A stretch of DNA of 64,000 bases, from NCBI RefSeq assembly GCF_023091865.1, contig NZ_JAHXDI010000002.1:372001-436000 (forward strand). Direction: 5' to 3'. The notes under the pieces are model-generated. The model made no database searches. It saw nothing but the letters and a program-made list of their open reading frames with translations, and was not told the DNA's origin. Position numbers and translations under genes: made by a program. This stretch comes from Chromohalobacter moromii (GTDB lineage: Bacteria > Pseudomonadota > Gammaproteobacteria > Pseudomonadales > Halomonadaceae). Positions 5,944 through 44,566 of this stretch are shown in pieces (position 1 is the first letter of the stretch; each line of letters starts with the position of its first letter).

Positions 5944-6939
5944 ATGTCCGATACCCAGTCCACCATTAATCTCGCCTCGATCTATGCCGCGCGCGCCCGC
6001 CTGCAAGGGCAGGTCGCGCGTACGCCACTGGTGCGTTCGCAAGCCTTGTCACAGCGTTTCGAGGCCGAGGTGTTCCTCAAGCTGGAAAACTGCCAGCCTA
6101 CGGGAGCGTTCAAGTTGCGCGGTGCGACCAACATGATCGCGGCCCTGATCGAACGTGACGGCCGCGACGCCTTGGCGCAAGGCGTGACCACGGCCTCGAC
6201 GGGCAATCATGGGCGCGCCGTCGCTTACGCCGCGTATCAACTGGGGATTCCTGCGGTGATCTGTCTGTCGCGTCTGGTACCCGACAACAAGGCCGCGGCC
6301 ATCGAGGCCTTGGGCGCCGAGGTGCGGCGTGTCGGGGAGAGCCAGGACGACGCCTTCGACGAGGTCGAGCGTCTGGAGGCCTCGGGTATGACGGCGATCC
6401 CGCCTTTCGACGATCCGCTGATCGTGAGTGGGCAGGGGACCATCGGCCTCGAGCTGATGGAGGATCAACCCGCACTCGATCGGGTCCTCGTCGGGCTTTC
6501 CGGCGGCGGTTTGTTGGGCGGCATCGGCGCGGCGGTAAAGGCGATTCGTCCTGCGACGCGGGTGACCGGGATCAGTCTTTCCCAAGGCGCGGCGATGTGG
6601 GAAAGCCTCCAGATCGGGCATCCGGTCAACGTGGCGGAAGTCGAGAGTCTCGGTGACTCGCTGGGTGGCGGCATCGGATTGGACAATCGCTACACTTTCG
6701 CGCTGGTGCGCAAGGTAATGGATGATCATTTCCAGGTTTCGGAACCTGCCATCGCTCGTGCCATGGTCGACTTGCTCAACGCCGAGAAGATGCTGGTCGA
6801 GGGGGCGGCGGCCGTGGGGCTAGCGGCGCTCGACGAACATGACCTCGACATTCGTGGCCAGCGCGTGGCATTGATCGTCTCCGGCAACGGTGTGGCGCTG
6901 GGAACGTTTGACCGCGCCCGGGCATTGGCGGGAGCCTGA
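5944..6939 (+). CDS. eutB: Threonine dehydratase-like hydroxyectoine utilisation protein EutB
   Basis: This 331-residue PLP fold-type II protein carries the cofactor lysine in GAFKLRGATNM, STGNHGRAVAYAA for substrate binding and the phosphate-binding GLSGGGLLGG. Alone it would be called serine/threonine dehydratase. Its pairing with an ornithine-cyclodeaminase-like gene next to doeC and doeD matches the eutBC genes that feed hydroxyectoine into ectoine catabolism. I chose the ATG at 5944 because GGGAGG lies just ahead and homologues begin near MSDTQSTINL. An in-frame start at 5863 would add 27 unconserved residues. Confidence 0.85.
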   Translation: MSDTQSTINLASIYAARARLQGQVARTPLVRSQALSQRFEAEVFLKLENCQPTGAFKLRGATNMIAALIERDGRDALAQGVTTASTGNHGRAVAYAAYQLGIPAVICLSRLVPDNKAAAIEALGAEVRRVGESQDDAFDEVERLEASGMTAIPPFDDPLIVSGQGTIGLELMEDQPALDRVLVGLSGGGLLGGIGAAVKAIRPATRVTGISLSQGAAMWESLQIGHPVNVAEVESLGDSLGGGIGLDNRYTFALVRKVMDDHFQVSEPAIARAMVDLLNAEKMLVEGAAAVGLAALDEHDLDIRGQRVALIVSGNGVALGTFDRARALAGA

Positions 6940-35998: not shown

Positions 35999-36736
35999 CT
36001 AATTCTCAGTACGAAGGAGTGGCGGTGGCGGACGCTCAATCGCGACGGACTCGAAATACGACGCGAGTCGCGAGACCAGTAGATCCAAGGCATGGTCCGA
36101 GGGGGCGCCAGCCGGAGGCCGTGCCTGGTTCGGATTGAGGCACTTTTGAAGAACATAATGGCGTACACCGCAATCGGCCAGTGACATGGCCAGCCTCTCC
36201 AGGTCGCGCAGCGAAAAGGTACGCCAGTGTAGGGACGTGCGGCACTCCAGCTCGATCCTGCTATCCAGCAACAGTGCCAGACTCTGCATATTGCGGTGCC
36301 ATATACCTTGCTTTTCGCGGGTGTGGCCGGCCTTCATGCTCCAGCCTCTGATGTCGAGTCTTACCCAATCCAGCCAGGGAAGCGCCTTGGACAGGCGCTT
36401 CGGGTAGAGGCCTGTCGTGTGTAACCCGGTGTCGAAATCGCGAGACTTGATGTCGTGTAGCGCCGTAGGTAGTTCGTGGTGAAGCGTCGGTTCGCCACCA
36501 CCGATCACCACCCCATCCAACAGGCCATGACGACGATCGAGCAAAGCGCATACGTCTCGCCATTCATATGGCTTGTTGCGCTGGTGTGGCGTCATTCGCA
36601 CGTTGTGGCAATACCCACACCTTGGCGAGCCGTCCCGCAGGAATATCGCACAGGCTCGACGCTTGGGAAATTCCTGTGTCGTCAGTGGTACTAGGCCAAC
36701 GATCGGCAAGGAGGCGGAAGAGACATTGATAGACAT
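35999..36736 (-). CDS. NrdG-like radical-SAM protein missing the first cluster cysteine
   Basis: The 245-residue protein is a paralogue of NrdG (38863-39588): shared blocks are LPIVGLVPLTTQEFP, CGYCHN, GGGEPTLHHELP, LPWLDWVRLDIRG and ECRTSLHWRTF. NrdG reads GCPLRCGYC with the CxxxCxxC cluster motif; this protein reads DGSPRCGYC, so the first cysteine is absent while the SAM-binding GGGEPT is kept. Cluster binding may be incomplete or use another ligand. The start at 36736 aligns with NrdG; an ATG at 36757 is possible. It leads into the SirB2 gene. Confidence 0.8.
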   Translation of the reverse strand: MSINVSSASLPIVGLVPLTTQEFPKRRACAIFLRDGSPRCGYCHNVRMTPHQRNKPYEWRDVCALLDRRHGLLDGVVIGGGEPTLHHELPTALHDIKSRDFDTGLHTTGLYPKRLSKALPWLDWVRLDIRGWSMKAGHTREKQGIWHRNMQSLALLLDSRIELECRTSLHWRTFSLRDLERLAMSLADCGVRHYVLQKCLNPNQARPPAGAPSDHALDLLVSRLASYFESVAIERPPPPLLRTEN

Positions 36737-36833
36737 GGGGTTTTCCATATGTGTCATGGCTCTTGTGGTCGGAGACGGGGGCGACTTCGAGGGAGAAGGA
36801 TGAACCCTGGGGGGACTCGGAGTCCTCGATATA

Positions 36834-37757
36834 TCAGCTGAGAGCCGCCTTCTGGTGGCTGTTGTCCATGCCGGGACGGCCGTGCCAGAAGCCGTCGCAG
36901 ATATCGGCATCGACCAGAGCCAATGGGTCGGGCGTGGGTTGCTCGCCCCGTCGCGCGGCGTCGAAAGCGGCGACTACCTTGGCCATGCCTTCGGCGCGGG
37001 GGCTCAGGCGTGCCACGCCGACGCCCATATCGGCCATGTCGCCTACCTCGTGGCGCAGATCCTGGCAGGCTCCGGAAAGGGTTTGGATGCCGTTCAGCGT
37101 GAAGACCTCCTTCGACTCCTGAGAGCGCAGCGGTAGCCCTTCGGGATGCTTCTGGCACACGAACTGGCAGCGGTCCTTGGGCTTCCGGTAGCGCCGGGCG
37201 GTGAAGCAGCGCGACGACCAGGCCAACGGCAGGTGGCCGTAGGCGAACACTTCGCAGGGCTGGTCGAGTCCCTCGGCACGGCAGTCGGCGAGCAGGCGGG
37301 CCAGGTCGTCGCGCGACATCTCCACCGGGGCGTGCCAGCGCTGCATGCCGGCGCGGGCCATGACGCCGATCGTTGCCGGGTTGTAGAGGTTGAGCGCAGC
37401 CCCGGCGATGAAGGGCGCACGGGCGGCGGATAGGTGATGCAGGGCGCTCTGGTCGTTGGCCTCGATGATGAGCTCGCCGTTGTCGCACAGCTTGCGCAGG
37501 TCGCGCAGATCGGCCTCGGATTCGATCAGCGTCTGGCTCGACAGCACTACCTGCTTGCCGCTCTGGGTCAGTTCGCGGCCTAGCCCTAACCAGTCGTCGA
37601 GCTTCATGTCGCGACGACGCGAGCAGACCGACTCGCCCAGGTATACGATCTCTATCGGCCAGTCGGCGGCCTCGCGATAGAAGTTGGCGTAGCGCTCGCG
37701 GGTCCAGTAGAAGAGCACTGGGCCCAGCGACAATTGCAGCGTCTCGGGGATGGACAT
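36834..37757 (-). CDS. ubiV: O2-independent ubiquinone biosynthesis protein UbiV (U32 family)
   Basis: This 307-residue U32-family protein retains the UbiV cysteines in GESVCSRRR and in SSRCFTARRYRKPKDRCQFVC, which bind a [4Fe-4S] cluster. With UbiU it hydroxylates ubiquinone precursors without oxygen, using prephenate as oxygen donor in E. coli. It follows ubiU by nine bases on the same strand and belongs to the anaerobic block, where it supports nitrate respiration through ubiquinol. Confidence 0.9.
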   Translation of the reverse strand: MSIPETLQLSLGPVLFYWTRERYANFYREAADWPIEIVYLGESVCSRRRDMKLDDWLGLGRELTQSGKQVVLSSQTLIESEADLRDLRKLCDNGELIIEANDQSALHHLSAARAPFIAGAALNLYNPATIGVMARAGMQRWHAPVEMSRDDLARLLADCRAEGLDQPCEVFAYGHLPLAWSSRCFTARRYRKPKDRCQFVCQKHPEGLPLRSQESKEVFTLNGIQTLSGACQDLRHEVGDMADMGVGVARLSPRAEGMAKVVAAFDAARRGEQPTPDPLALVDADICDGFWHGRPGMDNSHQKAALS

Positions 37758-37766
37758 GACTCTCTC

Positions 37767-38762
37767 CTATTTCCAACTGCGTTCGTAGGCGCCCAGGGTG
37801 GTGGTCGCGCCCTCGGAGACTTCGCCGAGACCGGCTACCCAGGCGGGATCGGGATGGAAGCGCTCGGGGGTGCGTTCGAGGCGGTCGAGCGCCTGACGCC
37901 AGATATCGGCGACCTTCGAAACGTAGGCGGGGCTGCGTTGGCGCCCCTCGATCTTCACCGCACTGATGCCCAGCTCGGCAAGCTCCGGCAACAGTTCCAG
38001 AGTGTTGAGGCTGGTGGGCTCTTCGATGGCATGGTAGGTCTCGCCGCCCACCTCGAAGCGCCCCTTGCACAGGGTGGGGTAACCGGCCCGCTCACCCTCG
38101 CCGTAGCGGTCGATCAGCACGCCGTTCAAGCGCGACTCGAGCCCCTCGGTGGTTTCCTCCCAGCGCACATGGGCCGCCGGCGAGCAGACCCCGCGGGTGT
38201 TGGGCGATTCCCCGGTGAGGTAGGAGGAGAGATAGCAGCGCCCCTCGGCCATGATGCACAGGCTGCCGAAGGCGAATACCTCGAGCTCCACCGGGCTCTG
38301 CCTGGCCAGGTCGCGCACTTGGGTGATGGAGAGTACCCGTGGCAGCACGGCGCGTGTGATGCCGAACTGGTCGTGATAGAAGCGTAGCGCCTCATGGCTG
38401 GTGGCCGAGCCCTGTACCGAGAGGTGGCGGGCCATGTCGGGATGGCGCCGGGCAGCGTAGTCGAGTAGCCCCATGTCGGCCAGGATCAGCGCGTCGACGC
38501 CGAGTTCGGTGGCCTGATCCACGGCGCGGGTCCACTGCACCCAGCCGTCGGGCTGCGGATAAGTGTTGATGGCGCAGAACATCCGCGTACTACGGGCATG
38601 AGCGTAGTCGATACCCTCGCGAGCGCGCTTGTCGGTGAAGTTGAGGCCGGCGAACTGTCGGGCGTTGGTGGCGTTCTGGAAGCCGAAATAGACGGCATCG
38701 GCGCCTTCGTCCACGGCCCGTTTCAGGGCGGGCAAGTTGCCAGCCGGGCAGACGAGTTCCAT
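37767..38762 (-). CDS. ubiU: O2-independent ubiquinone biosynthesis protein UbiU (U32 family)
   Basis: This 331-residue protein begins MELVCPAGNLPALKRAVDEG, typical of UbiU/YhbU. The four cluster cysteines appear as FGSLCIMAEGRCYLSSYLTG, RGVCSPAAHVRW and YPTLCKGRF. It forms a heterodimer with UbiV. An FNR-type box is centred 66 bases before its ATG, so the ubiUV pair is probably switched on by low oxygen. The third partner, ubiT, is at 47507. Confidence 0.92.
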   Translation of the reverse strand: MELVCPAGNLPALKRAVDEGADAVYFGFQNATNARQFAGLNFTDKRAREGIDYAHARSTRMFCAINTYPQPDGWVQWTRAVDQATELGVDALILADMGLLDYAARRHPDMARHLSVQGSATSHEALRFYHDQFGITRAVLPRVLSITQVRDLARQSPVELEVFAFGSLCIMAEGRCYLSSYLTGESPNTRGVCSPAAHVRWEETTEGLESRLNGVLIDRYGEGERAGYPTLCKGRFEVGGETYHAIEEPTSLNTLELLPELAELGISAVKIEGRQRSPAYVSKVADIWRQALDRLERTPERFHPDPAWVAGLGEVSEGATTTLGAYERSWK

Positions 38763-38862: not shown

Positions 38863-39588
38863 TCAGTCGCGCAGTTCGAGCCTTTCGAAGGTGGGGCGTA
38901 GCGTCGTGAGTAGCGATTCCAGGGCCTCGCCGTCAGGGCGTCGTGGCGGTGGGGTGGCATAGCTGGGGTTCAGGCACTGTCCCGTGCGCGCCAACTGGAT
39001 GGCATAGCGAGCGACGCCGCGTTCGGCGAGATCGAGCGCCAGCCGCTGCAGGCTCGCCAGGTCGAAATCGCGCCAATGCACCGTGGTGCGGCACTCGAAG
39101 GGAATGCCGCTCTCCAGCAGCAATGCCAGGCTGCGCTCATGGACGGCAGCCATGCCGGGGCGACCGACGATGCGGTCGAAATCGGCGTCGGCTCCCTTGA
39201 CGTCCAGTCCCACCCAGTCGAGCCAGGGCAACAGTGCCTGCAAGCGCCGTGGATAGACCCCGGCGGTATGCAGCCCCACCTTGAAGCCCAGGGCGCGGGC
39301 CCGCTCGGCGGCTGCGGGAAGGCCGGCATGCAGCGTGGGCTCGCCACCGCTGAACACGACGGCTTCCAGCAGGCCCTGGCGGCGTTCGAGAAACGCCTCG
39401 ATCTTGGCCCACTCCTCGGGGGTGGCCTTGCGCGGTTCGAGCATCTGCGGGTTATGGCAGTAGCCACAACGCAGCGGGCAGCCCTGCAGAAAGATCACAC
39501 AGGACAGGTGGTCGGGGTAGTCCAGGGTGGTCATGGGCGTGAGGCCGGCCACGGGCAGCCGTGGCCGGTGAGTATCGGTGTCGGTCAT
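38863..39588 (-). CDS. nrdG: Anaerobic ribonucleotide reductase activating protein NrdG
   Basis: This 241-residue radical-SAM activase has the CxxxCxxC motif in GCPLRCGYCHN, the SAM-binding SGGEPTLH and the rest of the NrdG fold. It generates the glycyl radical on NrdD. It is the last gene of the nrdD / small glycyl-radical gene / nrdG string, 47 bases after the small gene. A paralogue lacking one cluster cysteine lies at 35999-36736. Confidence 0.92.
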   Translation of the reverse strand: MTDTDTHRPRLPVAGLTPMTTLDYPDHLSCVIFLQGCPLRCGYCHNPQMLEPRKATPEEWAKIEAFLERRQGLLEAVVFSGGEPTLHAGLPAAAERARALGFKVGLHTAGVYPRRLQALLPWLDWVGLDVKGADADFDRIVGRPGMAAVHERSLALLLESGIPFECRTTVHWRDFDLASLQRLALDLAERGVARYAIQLARTGQCLNPSYATPPPRRPDGEALESLLTTLRPTFERLELRD

Positions 39589-39635: not shown

Positions 39636-39797
39636 TCAGAAGGAGGCGGCGCGCTCGCTGAAGTGGCGACGCTCGCGGTGTTCGGACTGCTTGCCGCGGT
39701 TGAACTGGCTGACCGGGCGATGGTATCCCATCACGCGAGTCCAGACCTCGCAGCGTTGGCGCTGTTCGGTGGGCAGGTTCTCGATGGTAGGGTTCAT
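39636..39797 (-). CDS. Stand-alone glycyl-radical C-terminal segment of NrdD (53 residues)
   Basis: This short gene encodes 53 residues: MNPTIENLPTEQRQRC, then EVWTRVMGYHRPVSQF, NRGKQSEHRERRHF and a short tail. RVMGYHRPVSQFNRGK corresponds to the C-terminal end of class III ribonucleotide reductases, where the glycine in the RVxGY motif carries the radical. The preceding nrdD stops before this region. The small gene has its own AAAGGAG eight bases before the ATG, so it is not a sequencing frameshift of nrdD. It probably completes NrdD as a separate polypeptide. Confidence 0.8.
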   Translation of the reverse strand: MNPTIENLPTEQRQRCEVWTRVMGYHRPVSQFNRGKQSEHRERRHFSERAASF

Positions 39798-39828
39798 GTG
39801 ATGCTCCTTTTACGCTGAGGGAATGACC

Positions 39829-41559
39829 TCAGGCTTTCTCGGCAGCCGAGGCCTGTCTGGCCAGAAGCGCGTCGTCGCACTTCGGGCAGAACTCGTGTTC
39901 ACCGGCCAGATAGCCGTGTACCGGACAGATCGAGAAGGTCGGTGTCACGGTGAGGTAAGGCAGCCGGAAACGTGACAGGGCGGTGTGCACCAGTTGCTTG
40001 CAGGCCCGTGCCGAGGAAAGTTTCTCGCGCATGTAGAGATGCAGCACGGTGCCGCCGGTATAGCGGGTTTGCAGCGGATCCTGGTGGAGCAGCGCCTCGA
40101 AGGGGTCGTCGGTGAACCCCACCGGCAGCTGGCTGGAGTTGGTGTAGTAGGGGGCCTCTGGCGTACCGGCCTGGAGAATGCCGGAAAAGCGTTTCCGGTC
40201 TTCCCTGGCGAAACGATGGGTAGTGCCCTCGGCCGGGGTCGCCTCCAGGTTGTAGAGGTGGCCGGTGCTTTCCTGGAACTCGCGCATCCGCTCGCGGACG
40301 TGATCCAGCAGTTCCAGGGCCAGTTGCTGACCTTCCGGGGCGGCGATATCGAAGCGGTCGGCGCTGAAGTTGCGCACCATCTCGTTGAGGCCGTTCACAC
40401 CCAGCGTCGAGAAGTGGTTGCGCAGCGTGCCCAGGTAGCGCTGGCTGTAGGGGTATAGGCCGTCGTCCATCCACCGCTGGATGCACTCGCGCTTGATCTC
40501 CAGGCTGTCGCGGCCCAGTTCCAGCAGTCGGTCCAGCTCTTTGAGGAGCCCCGCCTTGTCATCGGCGAAGCGGTGCCCCAGGCGCGCGCAGTTGATCGTC
40601 ACCACGCCCAGCGAGCCGGTCTGCTCGGCGCTGCCGAACAGGCCGTTACCGCGTTTGAGCAGTTCGCTGAGGTCGAGCTGCAGCCGGCAGCACATGGAGC
40701 GCACCATGTGCGGCTCCAGGTCAGAGTTGAGGAAGTTCTGGAAGTAGGGAAGACCGTACTTGGCGGTCAGCGCGAAGAGCCGCTCGGCGTTGCCGCTCTC
40801 CCAGTCGAAATCCGCGGTGATGTTGTAGGTGGGGATCGGGAAGGTGAAGACCCGGCCGCGGCAGTCGCCCTCCTCCATCACTTCCAGGTAGGCGCGGTTG
40901 AGAAGATCCATCTCGGCCTGCAGCTCGCCATAGGTGAAGGGCTGCTCTTCGCCGCCGATGACCGGAACCTGATCGCGTAGGTCCTGCGGGCAGATCCAGT
41001 CGAAGGTGAGGTTGGTGAAGGGTGTCTGGCTGCCCCAGCGCGACGGCACGTTGAGGTTGTAGATGAACTCCTGCACCGCTTGTTTCACTGCTGGATAGTC
41101 GAGCCGGTCCTTGCGTACGAAGGGCGCCAGGTAGGTATCGTAGGAGCTGAACGCCTGGGCGCCGGCCCATTCGTTCTGCAGGGTGCCAAGGAAGTTGACC
41201 ATTTGGCCCAGGGCGCTGGATAGATGCTTGGGCGGTGCGCTTTCGGCCCGTCCCGGCACGCCGTTGAAACCCTCCGCAAGCAGGTTGCGCAGTGACCAGC
41301 CGGCACAGTAGCCGCTGAGCATATCCAGATCGTGGATGTGCAGGTCGCCCTGGCGGTGCGCTGCACCCACCACAGCAGGATAGATCTCGTTGAGCCAGTA
41401 GTTGGCGATCAGCTTGCCCGAGGCGTTGAGAATCAGCCCGCCCAGGGAGTAGCCCTGGTTGGCGTTGGCATTGATGCGCCAATCGGCGCGTTGCAGGTAT
41501 TCGTTGACGGTCGAGGCGACGTCGATGGTGTGATGGCGCTGCACGGAGGGACTTGTCAC
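39829..41559 (-). CDS. nrdD: Anaerobic ribonucleoside-triphosphate reductase NrdD, lacking ATP-cone and glycyl-radical end
   Basis: The 576-residue protein has the NrdD barrel: GDLHIHDLDMLSGYCAGWSL, RWGSQTPFTNLTFDW, the catalytic-region block MCCRLQLDLSEL and a zinc-type end CPVHGYLAGEHEFCPKC. It ends there, without the RVxGY glycyl-radical motif, which is found in the separate 53-residue gene just downstream. The N-terminal ATP-cone of many NrdD is also absent. The start is a GTG at 41559 with GGGAG upstream, beside a CCATATATGG palindrome (41569-41578) that resembles half of a NrdR box. Confidence 0.9.
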   Translation of the reverse strand: MTSPSVQRHHTIDVASTVNEYLQRADWRINANANQGYSLGGLILNASGKLIANYWLNEIYPAVVGAAHRQGDLHIHDLDMLSGYCAGWSLRNLLAEGFNGVPGRAESAPPKHLSSALGQMVNFLGTLQNEWAGAQAFSSYDTYLAPFVRKDRLDYPAVKQAVQEFIYNLNVPSRWGSQTPFTNLTFDWICPQDLRDQVPVIGGEEQPFTYGELQAEMDLLNRAYLEVMEEGDCRGRVFTFPIPTYNITADFDWESGNAERLFALTAKYGLPYFQNFLNSDLEPHMVRSMCCRLQLDLSELLKRGNGLFGSAEQTGSLGVVTINCARLGHRFADDKAGLLKELDRLLELGRDSLEIKRECIQRWMDDGLYPYSQRYLGTLRNHFSTLGVNGLNEMVRNFSADRFDIAAPEGQQLALELLDHVRERMREFQESTGHLYNLEATPAEGTTHRFAREDRKRFSGILQAGTPEAPYYTNSSQLPVGFTDDPFEALLHQDPLQTRYTGGTVLHLYMREKLSSARACKQLVHTALSRFRLPYLTVTPTFSICPVHGYLAGEHEFCPKCDDALLARQASAAEKA

Positions 41560-41750
41560 CGGTTGCTCCCATATATGGTATTGATATTTTTAAAATGCAC
41601 TACATGATGTGTTTTCAAGCGTAGGCGCCCCAGAGTTGAAAAGACATGATGCAGATCAGGAAAAGGACAATCGGTGGTGATACCCGCCTGAACGGGGCTG
41701 CCGGGGCCAGGTCGACCGGGGGGAGCCTGACACCACCGCGCAGCACGAAG

Positions 41751-41805: not shown

Positions 41806-44097
41806 TCAGGTCGCAACGCTGCCCTTGGCCTCGCTGTCGGCGCTCTCGGTCGACTGACGCCGTGCGCGCCCGCACAAGGCGGAGACGACCTGCCAGGCCA
41901 CGGCCAGGGCGCCGACGATGAACACCACATCTCCGACGGTGCGGATCCAGCGCAGTGTCTCCAGCAGTGGCTGTTGCATGAAGGCTTCGCTGCGGGCGTA
42001 CCACAAGCCCTCGCTGGCGCTGGCAATGAACTGGATCACACCCACCGGCAGCAGGCTGGTGAACAGCATCAGTGCCAGGCCGGCGTTGAGGCAGCAGAAG
42101 CCGACCTTCATCAAGCGGTCGTTGAATACTAGGCCCGGCCTGATGTAGCGCAGCACCAGCAGGGTGAAGCCCAGTGCCAGAAAGCCGTAGACGCCGAACA
42201 GGGCGGCGTGGGCGTGGGTCGGCGTGGTGTTGAGTCCCTGTATATAGTACAGCGCGATCGGCGGGTTGATCATGAAGCCGAATACCCCGGCGCCGAGCAT
42301 GTTCCAGAACGCCACGCCGACGAAGAACAGCAGCGGCCACTTGACGTTCTCCATCCAGGGGGCACGCTGCCTGAGGCGCCAGTGCTCCCAGGCTTCGTAG
42401 CCGAGCACCACCAGCGGCACGACTTCCAGGGCGCTGAAGGTGGCGCCGACCGCCATGACCGGCGTAGTGGTGCCGGCGAAGTACAGATGGTGGAAGGTAC
42501 CTGGAATGCCGCCGAGCATGAACAGCGAGGCCGAGGCCAGGCTGGCGGTGGTGGCGATGCGGCGGGAGACCAGCCCCATGGTGCAGAAGATGAAGGCCAG
42601 CGCGGTGGTCGCGAACACCTCGAAGAAGCCTTCCACCCACAGGTGGACGATCCACCAGCGCCAGTACTCCATCACCGACAGATGCGTACGCTCGCCATAG
42701 AAGAAGCCGGCGCCGTAGAACAGGCCGATGCAGGCCACCGAGGCGGTCAGCAGGGCCAGCAGGTGCCTGTCGCCGGGCCGACGCAGGGCGGGCACGATGC
42801 CGCGCAGCATCAACACCAGCCAGAAGGCGATGCCGGTGAACTTGCCGATCTGCCACAGGCGGCCCAGGTCGACGTACTCATAGCCCTGATGGCCCAGCCA
42901 GAAGTTGAGGTCCGCGGGCATGACCTGGGCGATCGCCAGGTAGTTGCCGATGAAGGAGCCGGCGACCACGACGATCAATGCCCAGAACAGGATGTCCACG
43001 CCCAGCTTCTGGTACTTCGGATCCTTGCCGCCATTGATGATCGGGGCGAGGAACAGGCCGGCGGCGAGGAAGCCGGTGGCGATCCAGAACAGCGCACTCT
43101 GGATATGCCAGGTACGCAGCAGCGTATAGGGGAACCAGCGGGACAGCTCGATGCCGTAGAAGCTCTGGCCTTCGATGGTGTAATGTGCGGTGGCGCCGCC
43201 CACGAACACCTGGAAGACGAACAGGCCGACCACCAGCAGCAGGTATTTGCCCAGCGCCCGCTGCGATGGTGTCAGCGCGATGCCGGTCAGCGGATCCTTG
43301 ATGGGGGGCTCGGGTTCGGCCGCGTTCTCCTTGTGCAGGAACGCCCAGGTCCAGATCAACAGGCCGATACCGGCGATCAGCAGCACCACGCTGGCCAGCG
43401 ACCAGAAGATGTTTTCCGCCGTGGGAACGTTGTCGATCAGCGGCTCGTGCGGCCAGTTGTTGGTATAGGTCGCCACGCTTCCCGGGCGCTCGGTGGCGGC
43501 CGCCCAGGCCGTCCAGAAGAAGAAGTGGGTCAACTGCTCGCGGCGCGCGGCACTGGGCAGCGTATCCTCCTTCATGGCGTAGCTTTCGCGAGTGCTCTGT
43601 AGCGCGGGATCGTCGCTGAACAGGCGGCTATAGTAGTCGGCGGTCTGGGCCATGGCCCGGGCGCGTCGCTCGGAGACGGTCACCGTGTCGCTGGTGGCAT
43701 CCAGGGTATTGGTGCGATACGCCTGTTTGAGTTCGAACTCGAGCTGGTTTTGCTCGCTCGGACTCAGAGAGGCGTAGGACGCGCTATAGGTCTCCTCGGC
43801 AGCCAGTTCCAGCCAGGCCATCAGCTCGCGATGCAGCCAGTCGGCCGTCCAGTCGGGGGCCTGATAGGCGCCATGTCCCCAGATCGAGCCGAGCTGCATG
43901 CCGCCGACGGACTGCCAGGCGGTCTGGCCGTCGAGGATGTCGTCTTCGGTCATCAAGAGTTCGCCATTCGTCGCCACCACTTGGTCGGGGATCGGGGGCG
44001 CCTGGCGGTAGACCTCCTTGCCGAAAAAGCCCAGCAAGGCGAAGGTGACGCCCAGGACGATCAGCAGCAGGCCCCAGAGCTTGCGGTAATTAGCCAT
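41806..44097 (-). CDS. norB: Quinol-dependent nitric oxide reductase (qNor)
   Basis: The 763-residue protein is the single-subunit qNor: an N-terminal helix with a periplasmic cytochrome c-like extension (no haem c motif), then about 12 helices of the haem-copper fold. Haem ligands are seen in LLRTWHIQSALFW and GTFHHLYFAGTTTP, and the proton-path glutamates in HLWVEGFFEVFATTALAF. It reduces NO to N2O with electrons from quinol. The ATG overlaps the end of the di-iron repair gene by eight bases after CAGGAGGCTCGGC, so both are one NorR-controlled unit. Confidence 0.93.
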   Translation of the reverse strand: MANYRKLWGLLLIVLGVTFALLGFFGKEVYRQAPPIPDQVVATNGELLMTEDDILDGQTAWQSVGGMQLGSIWGHGAYQAPDWTADWLHRELMAWLELAAEETYSASYASLSPSEQNQLEFELKQAYRTNTLDATSDTVTVSERRARAMAQTADYYSRLFSDDPALQSTRESYAMKEDTLPSAARREQLTHFFFWTAWAAATERPGSVATYTNNWPHEPLIDNVPTAENIFWSLASVVLLIAGIGLLIWTWAFLHKENAAEPEPPIKDPLTGIALTPSQRALGKYLLLVVGLFVFQVFVGGATAHYTIEGQSFYGIELSRWFPYTLLRTWHIQSALFWIATGFLAAGLFLAPIINGGKDPKYQKLGVDILFWALIVVVAGSFIGNYLAIAQVMPADLNFWLGHQGYEYVDLGRLWQIGKFTGIAFWLVLMLRGIVPALRRPGDRHLLALLTASVACIGLFYGAGFFYGERTHLSVMEYWRWWIVHLWVEGFFEVFATTALAFIFCTMGLVSRRIATTASLASASLFMLGGIPGTFHHLYFAGTTTPVMAVGATFSALEVVPLVVLGYEAWEHWRLRQRAPWMENVKWPLLFFVGVAFWNMLGAGVFGFMINPPIALYYIQGLNTTPTHAHAALFGVYGFLALGFTLLVLRYIRPGLVFNDRLMKVGFCCLNAGLALMLFTSLLPVGVIQFIASASEGLWYARSEAFMQQPLLETLRWIRTVGDVVFIVGALAVAWQVVSALCGRARRQSTESADSEAKGSVAT

Positions 44098-44566
44098 GCC
44101 GAGCCTCCTGCACCAAGGCCTGTTCGAACAGGACGTCGTTTTCCAGCTGCATGTGTTGGACCAGGTCCTCGCGGAATTCGCGCAAACCGTCGTATAGCGC
44201 ACGCCAAGTCGTGCAGGCGTCCGCGGGCGCCTGGAGATCGCGCGTCAGCACCATCACCTGATCCAGCGCTTCATGGTGTTCGTCATGCTCGAAACGCATG
44301 ACGGCAATGGGGCCACGGGCGGTGCCGCCACGCTTGATCCTCGGGAACAGCACGCTCTCTTCCTTTTGCATATGGCTTTCCAGTGCCTGATGCAGCTCTT
44401 CGAGGTGATCGGCCAGGCCGCGGGGGCACTGGACATGCGTGTCATGGACCTGTTCGACGCGCCGCGCCAGGCGGATGAGTTCGGGCAGCTGCTGGCGATG
44501 GATGGCGTGATAACGGGCCAGGATATGATCGATCAGTTCGCTGGGAGATCGCTCCGAAAGCGTCAT
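44090..44566 (-). CDS. dnrN: Di-iron (hemerythrin-type) Fe-S cluster repair protein, DnrN/YtfE-like
   Basis: This 158-residue protein matches the hemerythrin half of YtfE/RIC: IDHILARYHAIHRQQLPELI, LEELHQALESHMQKEESVLFP and VMRFEHDEHHEALDQVM supply the His/Glu di-iron ligands. The N-terminal ScdA domain of YtfE is absent, as in shorter DnrN proteins. Such proteins repair Fe-S clusters damaged by NO. The ATG at 44566 has AGGAG; a sigma54 promoter and NorR sites lie just upstream. Confidence 0.88.
   Translation of the reverse strand: MTLSERSPSELIDHILARYHAIHRQQLPELIRLARRVEQVHDTHVQCPRGLADHLEELHQALESHMQKEESVLFPRIKRGGTARGPIAVMRFEHDEHHEALDQVMVLTRDLQAPADACTTWRALYDGLREFREDLVQHMQLENDVLFEQALVQEARHG

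Follow-up and report, generated by a model that had tools for sequence, protein, structure and literature searches.

In Chromohalobacter moromii, the class III ribonucleotide reductase (RNR) NrdD is encoded in two pieces, a core gene that stops before the glycyl-radical loop and a 53-residue gene that carries the loop. We estimate the probability at about 85% that the two products are subunits of one enzyme. In this reading, the glycyl-radical domain (GRD) would be exchangeable and would probably also be supplied by phages, comparable to YfiD and T4 Y06I for pyruvate formate-lyase (PFL). The window, i.e., the whole stretch of DNA analysed, comprises 64,000 nucleotides (contig NZ_JAHXDI010000002.1, positions 372,001 to 436,000), and all coordinates of the locus refer to it.

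Gene organization of the split nrdD locus

The genes of the locus lie on the minus strand in the order nrdD core, GRD gene, nrdG, ubiU, and ubiV. The core gene (39829..41559) encodes 576 residues from a GTG start, and the GRD gene (39636..39797) follows after a gap of 31 bases in a different frame. The Shine-Dalgarno sequence of the GRD gene, AAAGGAG (39804..39810, minus strand), precedes the ATG at 39797. A short gene at this distance with a ribosome-binding site of its own is what the sequence-only reading had described. The nrdG gene (38863..39588) encodes an NrdG2-type radical-SAM activase of 241 residues, which matches TIGR02495 with 195 bits (cut-off, 131.15). It is followed by ubiU (37767..38762; NF047963, 561.3 bits), of anaerobic ubiquinone synthesis, and ubiV (36834..37757; NF047965, 373.3 bits). 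Upstream of nrdD, also on the minus strand, are the gene for a nitric oxide reductase large subunit (41806..44202; PF22085 and PF00115) and a weak ANR/FNR-like box, CTGATCTGCATCAT (41646..41659, minus strand), with 8 of 10 consensus bases. The box is one of two such sites that a scripted search of 300 bases for the consensus turned up, without a significance test.

We compared this neighbourhood with those of 80 relatives, the best 80 of 481. A homologue of NrdG is present in all 69 relatives with full flanks and in 77 of all 80. In the 69 full-flank relatives, ubiU is near nrdD in 24 and ubiV in 39. A conserved nitric oxide reductase neighbourhood is rejected, as a homologue is found in only two of the 69; the nrdD of Cupriavidus necator also has a nitric-oxide reductase gene upstream.

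Downstream of ubiV, 35999-36910 (minus strand) encodes a second NrdG2-like radical-SAM protein, which scores 130.4 bits, just below the cut-off of 131.15, and lacks the first Cys of CxxxCxxC (FLRDGSPRCGYC). None of the ORFs in the stored flanks of the 80 relatives has this protein as its best match, but the flanks may be too short.

The core lacks the glycyl-radical loop

The core frame (41559-39829) stops shortly after CPVHGYLAGEHEFCPKC. The core matches positions 2-528 of the 562 positions of the NRDD profile (PF13597, 561.9 bits), and the glycyl-radical loop, positions 531-562, is on the other gene. This agrees with the earlier statement that the frame ends soon after the CxxH...CxxC region and without the radical loop. 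The core also matches NF006126 (PRK08270.1) with 1013.5 bits over profile positions 94-657 of 684, and TIGR02487 with 439.7 bits (cut-off, 326.35).

The core presents the NxN flap, HxHD, MCCR, and a CxxH...CxxC Zn-type site; the roles of the MCCR, NxN, and HxHD motifs are taken from the available parts of PMC11226230 and PMC4493059. In 39 aligned rows, residues C285/C286, N27/N29, and H71/D72 are invariant, H69 is nearly so, and the Zn-type ligands C540, H543, C553, and C556 are invariant as well. With respect to the thioredoxin-reduced NrdD2 type, which has a third active-site Cys and a Glu, the Glu of NLEATP and several Cys residues are invariant in the 39 rows, without a structural assignment of the third Cys. 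The absence of an ATP-cone, remarked on earlier, holds: the core of the window has no Pfam match to this domain at E 0.01, and its open frame of 586 residues leaves no space for one.

A whole-genome search of the same genome at E 0.001 gives no NRDD match beyond the core and the GRD. The genome encodes two further RNR large subunits. By Pfam, the first carries an ATP-cone domain and the second RNR_N, and from these domains we take both to be class I. Since both are apparently class I, the split class III enzyme is probably the only oxygen-independent RNR of the genome.

The 53-residue protein matches the missing loop

The ORF 39797-39636 matches NRDD positions 531-562 with 34.8 bits (E 9.9e-9), above the cut-off of 26.2 bits, so that the profile is covered by the two pieces together, and the assignment of the small protein to the C-terminal radical loop of NrdD is borne out. 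At E 0.01, the small protein matches no Pfam family but PF13597. No kinship with the C-terminus of PFL is seen in Pfam or in NCBIfam, in which all five matches are NrdD families. The predicted radical residue is Gly24 (codon 39728-39726), and a conserved Cys is residue 16 (codon 39752-39750).

All 189 bacterial GRDs linked to nrdD contain the motif R[VIS][MV]G[YF]xRP, as do 67 of the 68 viral ones. The GRD segments were cut by this motif, and its letters are therefore partly preselected in the conservation figures. In 134 distinct bacterial segments, which follow the pattern xRxxCExWTRVMGYxRP...NxGKxxE...R, eleven residues (R, R, M, G, R, P, N, G, K, E, R) show 100% conservation and the Cys 99%. 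The GRD is under purifying selection, with a median dN/dS of 0.17 (5365 usable of 11,781 pairs, which are not independent).

The conserved Cys was considered as a sign of splitting or re-fusion. Fused neighbours L147, L205, L250, and L253 have Thr at this position, and fused L256, L484, and L485 keep the Cys. The idea is only partly borne out, as the fused outgroup row L145 has the Cys likewise. A role as a zinc ligand is judged unnecessary, because the four Zn-type ligands are invariant in the core alone.

Several GRDs end in ...AAE (bacterial L241, L243, L244, L245, L334-L336, L337, L338, and L339; viral L281 and L304), possibly a degradation tag and a link to the host. RefSeq labels some of the small GRD proteins 'nrdD', and in a Paracoccus ferrooxidans record the GRD protein is annotated as a hypothetical protein.

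The split recurs in many bacteria

The sequence-only reading could not tell how widespread the arrangement is and suggested a search for separate homologues. We counted the pieces in samples of genomes at several taxonomic ranks; the samples overlap, and the counts are read off search listings. In the family sample (250 genomes), 64 genomes have NRDD and 62 of these are split, 61 with the pieces as separate matches and one (G174) with one frame interrupted by a stop; the exceptions are a fused gene (G026) and one that is cut off (G128). The order sample (390 genomes) has 57 genomes with NRDD, 32 split and 25 fused. In the class sample (369 genomes), 38 have NRDD, comprising 28 split, 7 fused, and 3 partial or weak. 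The split is found in 13 of 57 NRDD-bearing genomes of the phylum sample (398 genomes) and in 10 of 16 from the class of G1315 (142 genomes). Fifteen family or order genomes without a stored locus, whose pieces were listed in one frame or were doubtful, were fetched for checking. All 15 are split, by an intervening stop or by different frames.

In the genome_contigs set, 79 of the 80 relatives are split, and the remaining one (L071) reaches the contig end. The closest named relative among these best 80 of 481 is a Halomonas with 94% identity. Among the relatives are Halomonas, Vreelandella, Stutzerimonas, Pseudomonas, Marinobacter, Chromatiaceae, Thioglobus, betaproteobacterial MAGs, and one MAG titled Thermoflexus. 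The split is also carried by annotated plasmids of Cupriavidus, Bradyrhizobium, Paracoccus, and Sulfuricurvum kujiense (Campylobacterota); in the last, the core and GRD genes overlap by 4 bases. In a Thiothrix record, the GRD and NrdG are annotated, and the core is seen only as an open piece of 321 residues. In total, 125 of 145 loci show the pair of core and GRD (the loci of the window and of its own genome are included, and some overlap), which excludes chance. The remaining 20 are 19 fused E. coli-type NrdD genes and L071.

One of the split genes of the order sample (L218 of G339) contains TGA codons in frame, nine in the core and one in the GRD. Either the source is a TGA-recoded gammaproteobacterium or the gene has decayed.

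The C. necator H16 plasmid pHG1 provides a case with physiological data. Its nrdD is split, encoding a 676-residue core with an ATP-cone, a 66-residue GRD, and NrdG. The computed mass of the core is 76.19 kDa, and the NrdD mass published by Siedow et al. in 1999 is reportedly 76.2 kDa. According to the accessible part of PMC2864759, NrdDG is essential for complete denitrification in C. necator; the gene number in between is inferred to be that of the GRD gene. The split enzyme very probably works in a living cell, and a demonstration that the small gene is needed was not found. The available text of PMC12284477 gives P. aeruginosa NrdD (PA1920) as 76 kDa, which is the size of a cone-bearing core without a GRD and suggests a split enzyme there too.

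GRD genes can be unlinked or multiplied

In some genomes the GRD gene is not next to the core gene. It is located ~9.5 kb from nrdD and overlaps nrdG in G1254, and it is on a different contig in G1422. Additional copies also occur, with four GRD genes in G1333 and two each in G1393, G1410, and G886. Over 40 codons, the DNA identity of the nrdD-linked and extra copies is 92.5% in G886, 83.3% in G1393, 95% in G1410, and 68-76% in G1333. In G1390, a second match scores under the cut-off, and no additional gene could be recovered there.

Some of the solo genes have recombinase or phage genes nearby. The solo GRD of G1393 is ~0.5 kb from a recombinase gene, and genes for RecT, YqaJ, and an RNR lie within ~3.2 kb of that of G886. 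The few ORFs scanned next to the additional copies in G1333 and G1410 and next to the GRD of G1422 include no clear phage gene. G448, of the order sample, has a solo GRD ~2.5 kb from a phage tail gene and only a fused E. coli-type NrdD. Exchange does not explain this combination.

The region around the solo GRD gene of G886 (L346, G886:C3) is prophage-like and has a gene for a 952-residue class I/II RNR ~2 kb from the GRD gene.

History of the split

A quick tree of 76 cores has three changes between the labels split and fused. With three plasmid-borne rows added and one row removed, the changes number seven and the rooting is unstable. A careful tree of 42 rows, which excludes the far outgroup and L256 and carries a long-branch warning for L166, groups 33 split and 6 fused rows in a supported clade, with five changes. 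Many inner branches are weak, and one outgroup row is long. A single clean origin, as in the three-change tree, is thus weakened once the plasmid relatives are added. Judged from these trees alone, the history would most simply be one early split followed by several re-fusions, with the number and direction of events unsettled. The fused close relatives are L147, L205, L250, L253, L256, L484, and L485, indicating that the covalent link works too.

A tie between the split and the loss of the ATP-cone, at which the sequence-only reading had merely hinted, is rejected. Among representatives at 86% identity, 41 split enzymes have a cone-size N-terminal extension and 17 do not. Cone size is a length rule, with which Pfam agrees for L330, L105, L199, and L147 (cone) and for the window (none). 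By Pfam, the cone is retained in C. necator, L105, and L199, all of which have a split enzyme. Cone-size N-termini come and go within the clade, and cone loss is therefore a separate change.

Most viral contigs with a GRD show no core

Sixty-nine IMG/VR viral contigs encode a GRD protein; the profile search of viral contigs returned 344 stretches, which were not individually inspected. Of the 69, we searched 50 whole and left out 19, many of them short. No NrdD core is found in 49 of the 50, the exception being G1492, which has both core and GRD. None of the 50 has an NrdG2 match or a class I/II large subunit. None of these records is listed as at least 90% complete, and they are perhaps fragments, so the missing core and NrdG are no proof that the viruses lack them. 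The isolate phages of INPHARED give no good GRD match.

The GRD was read by the scan in 68 of the 69 viral loci, L308 only partly. The 58 distinct viral segments share EVWTRVMGY, RP, N, K, E, and R without exception, and the conserved Cys is kept in 94% and is otherwise Val. In L308, which is outside the 58, Tyr replaces the Trp. The first-listed families of 116 neighbouring ORFs at 14 viral loci include portal, terminase, head maturation protease, integrase, and tail and tape-measure proteins. At L320, five of seven ORFs match thymidylate synthase, clamp, DNA polymerase, clamp loader, and a UvsX-like recombinase. Three neighbouring ORFs of L292 have no family match. The hosts of the GRD-bearing phages are probably varied.

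Four viral loci have long frames only when TGA is read. The codon of the radical glycine in L308 (GRD gene at 6010-6165 of that locus) is TGA, and so is the codon of the conserved Gly of NxGK in L329; both GRDs were read under code 25. The occurrence of TGA at these glycine positions indicates that TGA probably means glycine in the two phages, as in code 25, although this is deduced from the codons only.

Viral GRDs L263, L264, L272, L287, L289, L290, and L323 have an N-terminal Cys-rich segment of the type PCAH...C.LGR..P..C..CAAYSPGL. The PHROG family phrog_4132, of 179 residues and unknown function, matches the GRD of NrdD at positions ~115-155.

Alternative explanations

The two pieces jointly match one family profile, as would be expected if a full-length nrdD had been broken by a sequencing error or a recent frameshift or were decaying as a pseudogene. 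We regard this as next to impossible. The same break is present in many separately sequenced genomes, and the GRD is conserved across gaps of differing length, with the low dN/dS given above. Neither of the outcomes named beforehand as fatal to a split, frames that fuse on resequencing or another full-length nrdD in the genome, has support, since the break recurs and no other NRDD match is found. An ordinary full-length NrdD could also be made from two genuine frames by programmed frameshift, stop read-through, or RNA processing, and 33 of the 125 pairs are indeed in frame, many with one stop and a short linker only. However, 92 of the 125 are out of frame, the gaps range from -26 to 425 nt (median 43, with seven overlaps), and an ATG start could be picked for all 125 small genes. 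The unlinked genes of G1254 and G1422, the extra bacterial copies, and the GRDs of the 49 viral contigs without an adjoining core also speak against recoding, which is very improbable as an explanation. Equally improbable in our judgement is that the small protein is a GrcA/YfiD-like repair part for another glycyl-radical enzyme and that the 576-residue protein is inactive or works otherwise. Such parts exist for PFL, namely YfiD and T4 Y06I (available part of PMC8683613), and the search of the genome for other matches covered NrdD and not PFL. Against this reading, no further NrdD match is found in the genome, Pfam assigns the small protein to NRDD alone (E 0.01), its gene sits between nrdG and a core that lacks exactly this part, and the core motifs are invariant. 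We therefore retain the two-subunit class III RNR, which the sequence-only reading had proposed and which the family matches, the recurrence, the unlinked and multi-copy loop genes, and the lack of a second NrdD match support.

For the viral copies, a different question arises. The viral GRD may compete with the host GRD and poison or re-tune the host enzyme, supplying no spare. A GRD without a core on 49 of 50 contigs is compatible with such a role, as are the Cys-rich N-terminal segments of some viral GRDs and the Val in place of the conserved Cys in ~5% of the 58 distinct viral segments. However, 67 of 68 viral GRDs retain RVMGY...RP, as does the remaining one (L308) when read under code 25, which a mere blocker need not do, and the thymidylate synthase and DNA polymerase beside the GRD of L320 fit a role in dNTP supply. 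Competition is thus unlikely, without being dismissed. We find it reasonably likely that class III RNR is modular, with a free GRD of ~50-100 residues, and that phages, including some that appear to read TGA as glycine, carry the GRD alone to keep or take over anaerobic dNTP synthesis of the host.

Proposed mechanism

In the two-subunit enzyme, the large protein would be the NrdD core and the 53-residue protein its glycyl-radical domain. NrdG would install the radical on Gly24 of the small protein. The small protein is predicted to fill the core barrel beside the MCCR cysteine, where the loop of a fused enzyme sits. This seat is inferred by homology, as the C-terminal loop of solved NrdD chains aligns with the GRD part of the profile (PDB matches 4coi, 4u3e, 8p23, 9d3x, and 1h78; profile including read-through and fused rows). 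The radical would then pass to the MCCR cysteine, which would initiate the reduction of the ribonucleotide. As a separate subunit, the radical part could be exchanged, and damage by oxygen (or NO) at the glycyl radical would cost only 53 residues instead of the whole enzyme. That exchange follows oxygen damage is an inference from the example of YfiD and T4 Y06I. Phages and prophages, which carry only the small protein, would probably plug it into the core of the host. Docking in trans, radical installation, exchange, dissociability, turnover, and a benefit to the phage are all inferences, for which there are no interaction, EPR, or activity data.

If so, a radical enzyme known from textbooks as a single chain consists of two proteins in a wide range of bacteria, C. 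necator H16 among them. The split enzyme is a natural system for asking when NrdG sees the GRD and whether the radical domain exchanges during turnover. It bears on allosteric control via positioning of the GRD, on which PMC11226230 and PMC12662201 disagree in the parts available, and on whether enzymes other than PFL have spare parts, a point raised speculatively in the accessible text of PMC8683613. The viral GRDs would be a new kind of phage gene of nucleotide metabolism, easily overlooked at ~50 codons.

Comparison with known systems

A text search of the open-licence PMC literature found neither such a split NrdD nor phage GRDs described, and names in databases show that the short GRD gene has already been noticed. 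The RNR phylogeny of PMC9531940, as far as its available text tells, dropped sequences of <400 residues, a filter that would hide the small GRD part.

A close parallel is given by E. coli YfiD/GrcA and phage T4 Y06I, in which a small free glycyl-radical protein, phage-borne too, goes with a larger core (PMC8683613); the part of that paper available names these two as the only validated spare parts and speculates that others may exist. YfiD and Y06I serve PFL and repair a damaged full-length enzyme, whereas the split NrdD core gene has no GRD at all.

Pseudomonas NrdJa/NrdJb is a class II, B12-dependent RNR that is not known to have a free radical-carrying piece. It is likewise a two-gene RNR (nrdJab, from the accessible part of PMC4860495). 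Phage nrdD genes are also known in pieces, as in Aeromonas phage phiAS4, owing to introns, inteins, or fragmentation without a known cause in single phages (PMC3653736, in the part available). In split NrdD, by contrast, the radical domain is set apart by a single break that recurs across many taxa. In class I RNR, the radical is on a separate subunit, NrdB, too (excerpt of PMC3019208), but it is a tyrosyl/metal radical on an unrelated small subunit, and the likeness is an analogy only.

The fused NrdD enzymes (T4, T. maritima, P. copri, StNrdD, and the E. coli type) have the core profile, the motifs, the radical loop, and the NrdG activase in common with the split enzyme. In the fused enzymes the core chain itself ends in the GRD, whereas in the split enzyme it has a gene of its own, which is sometimes unlinked or present in several copies.
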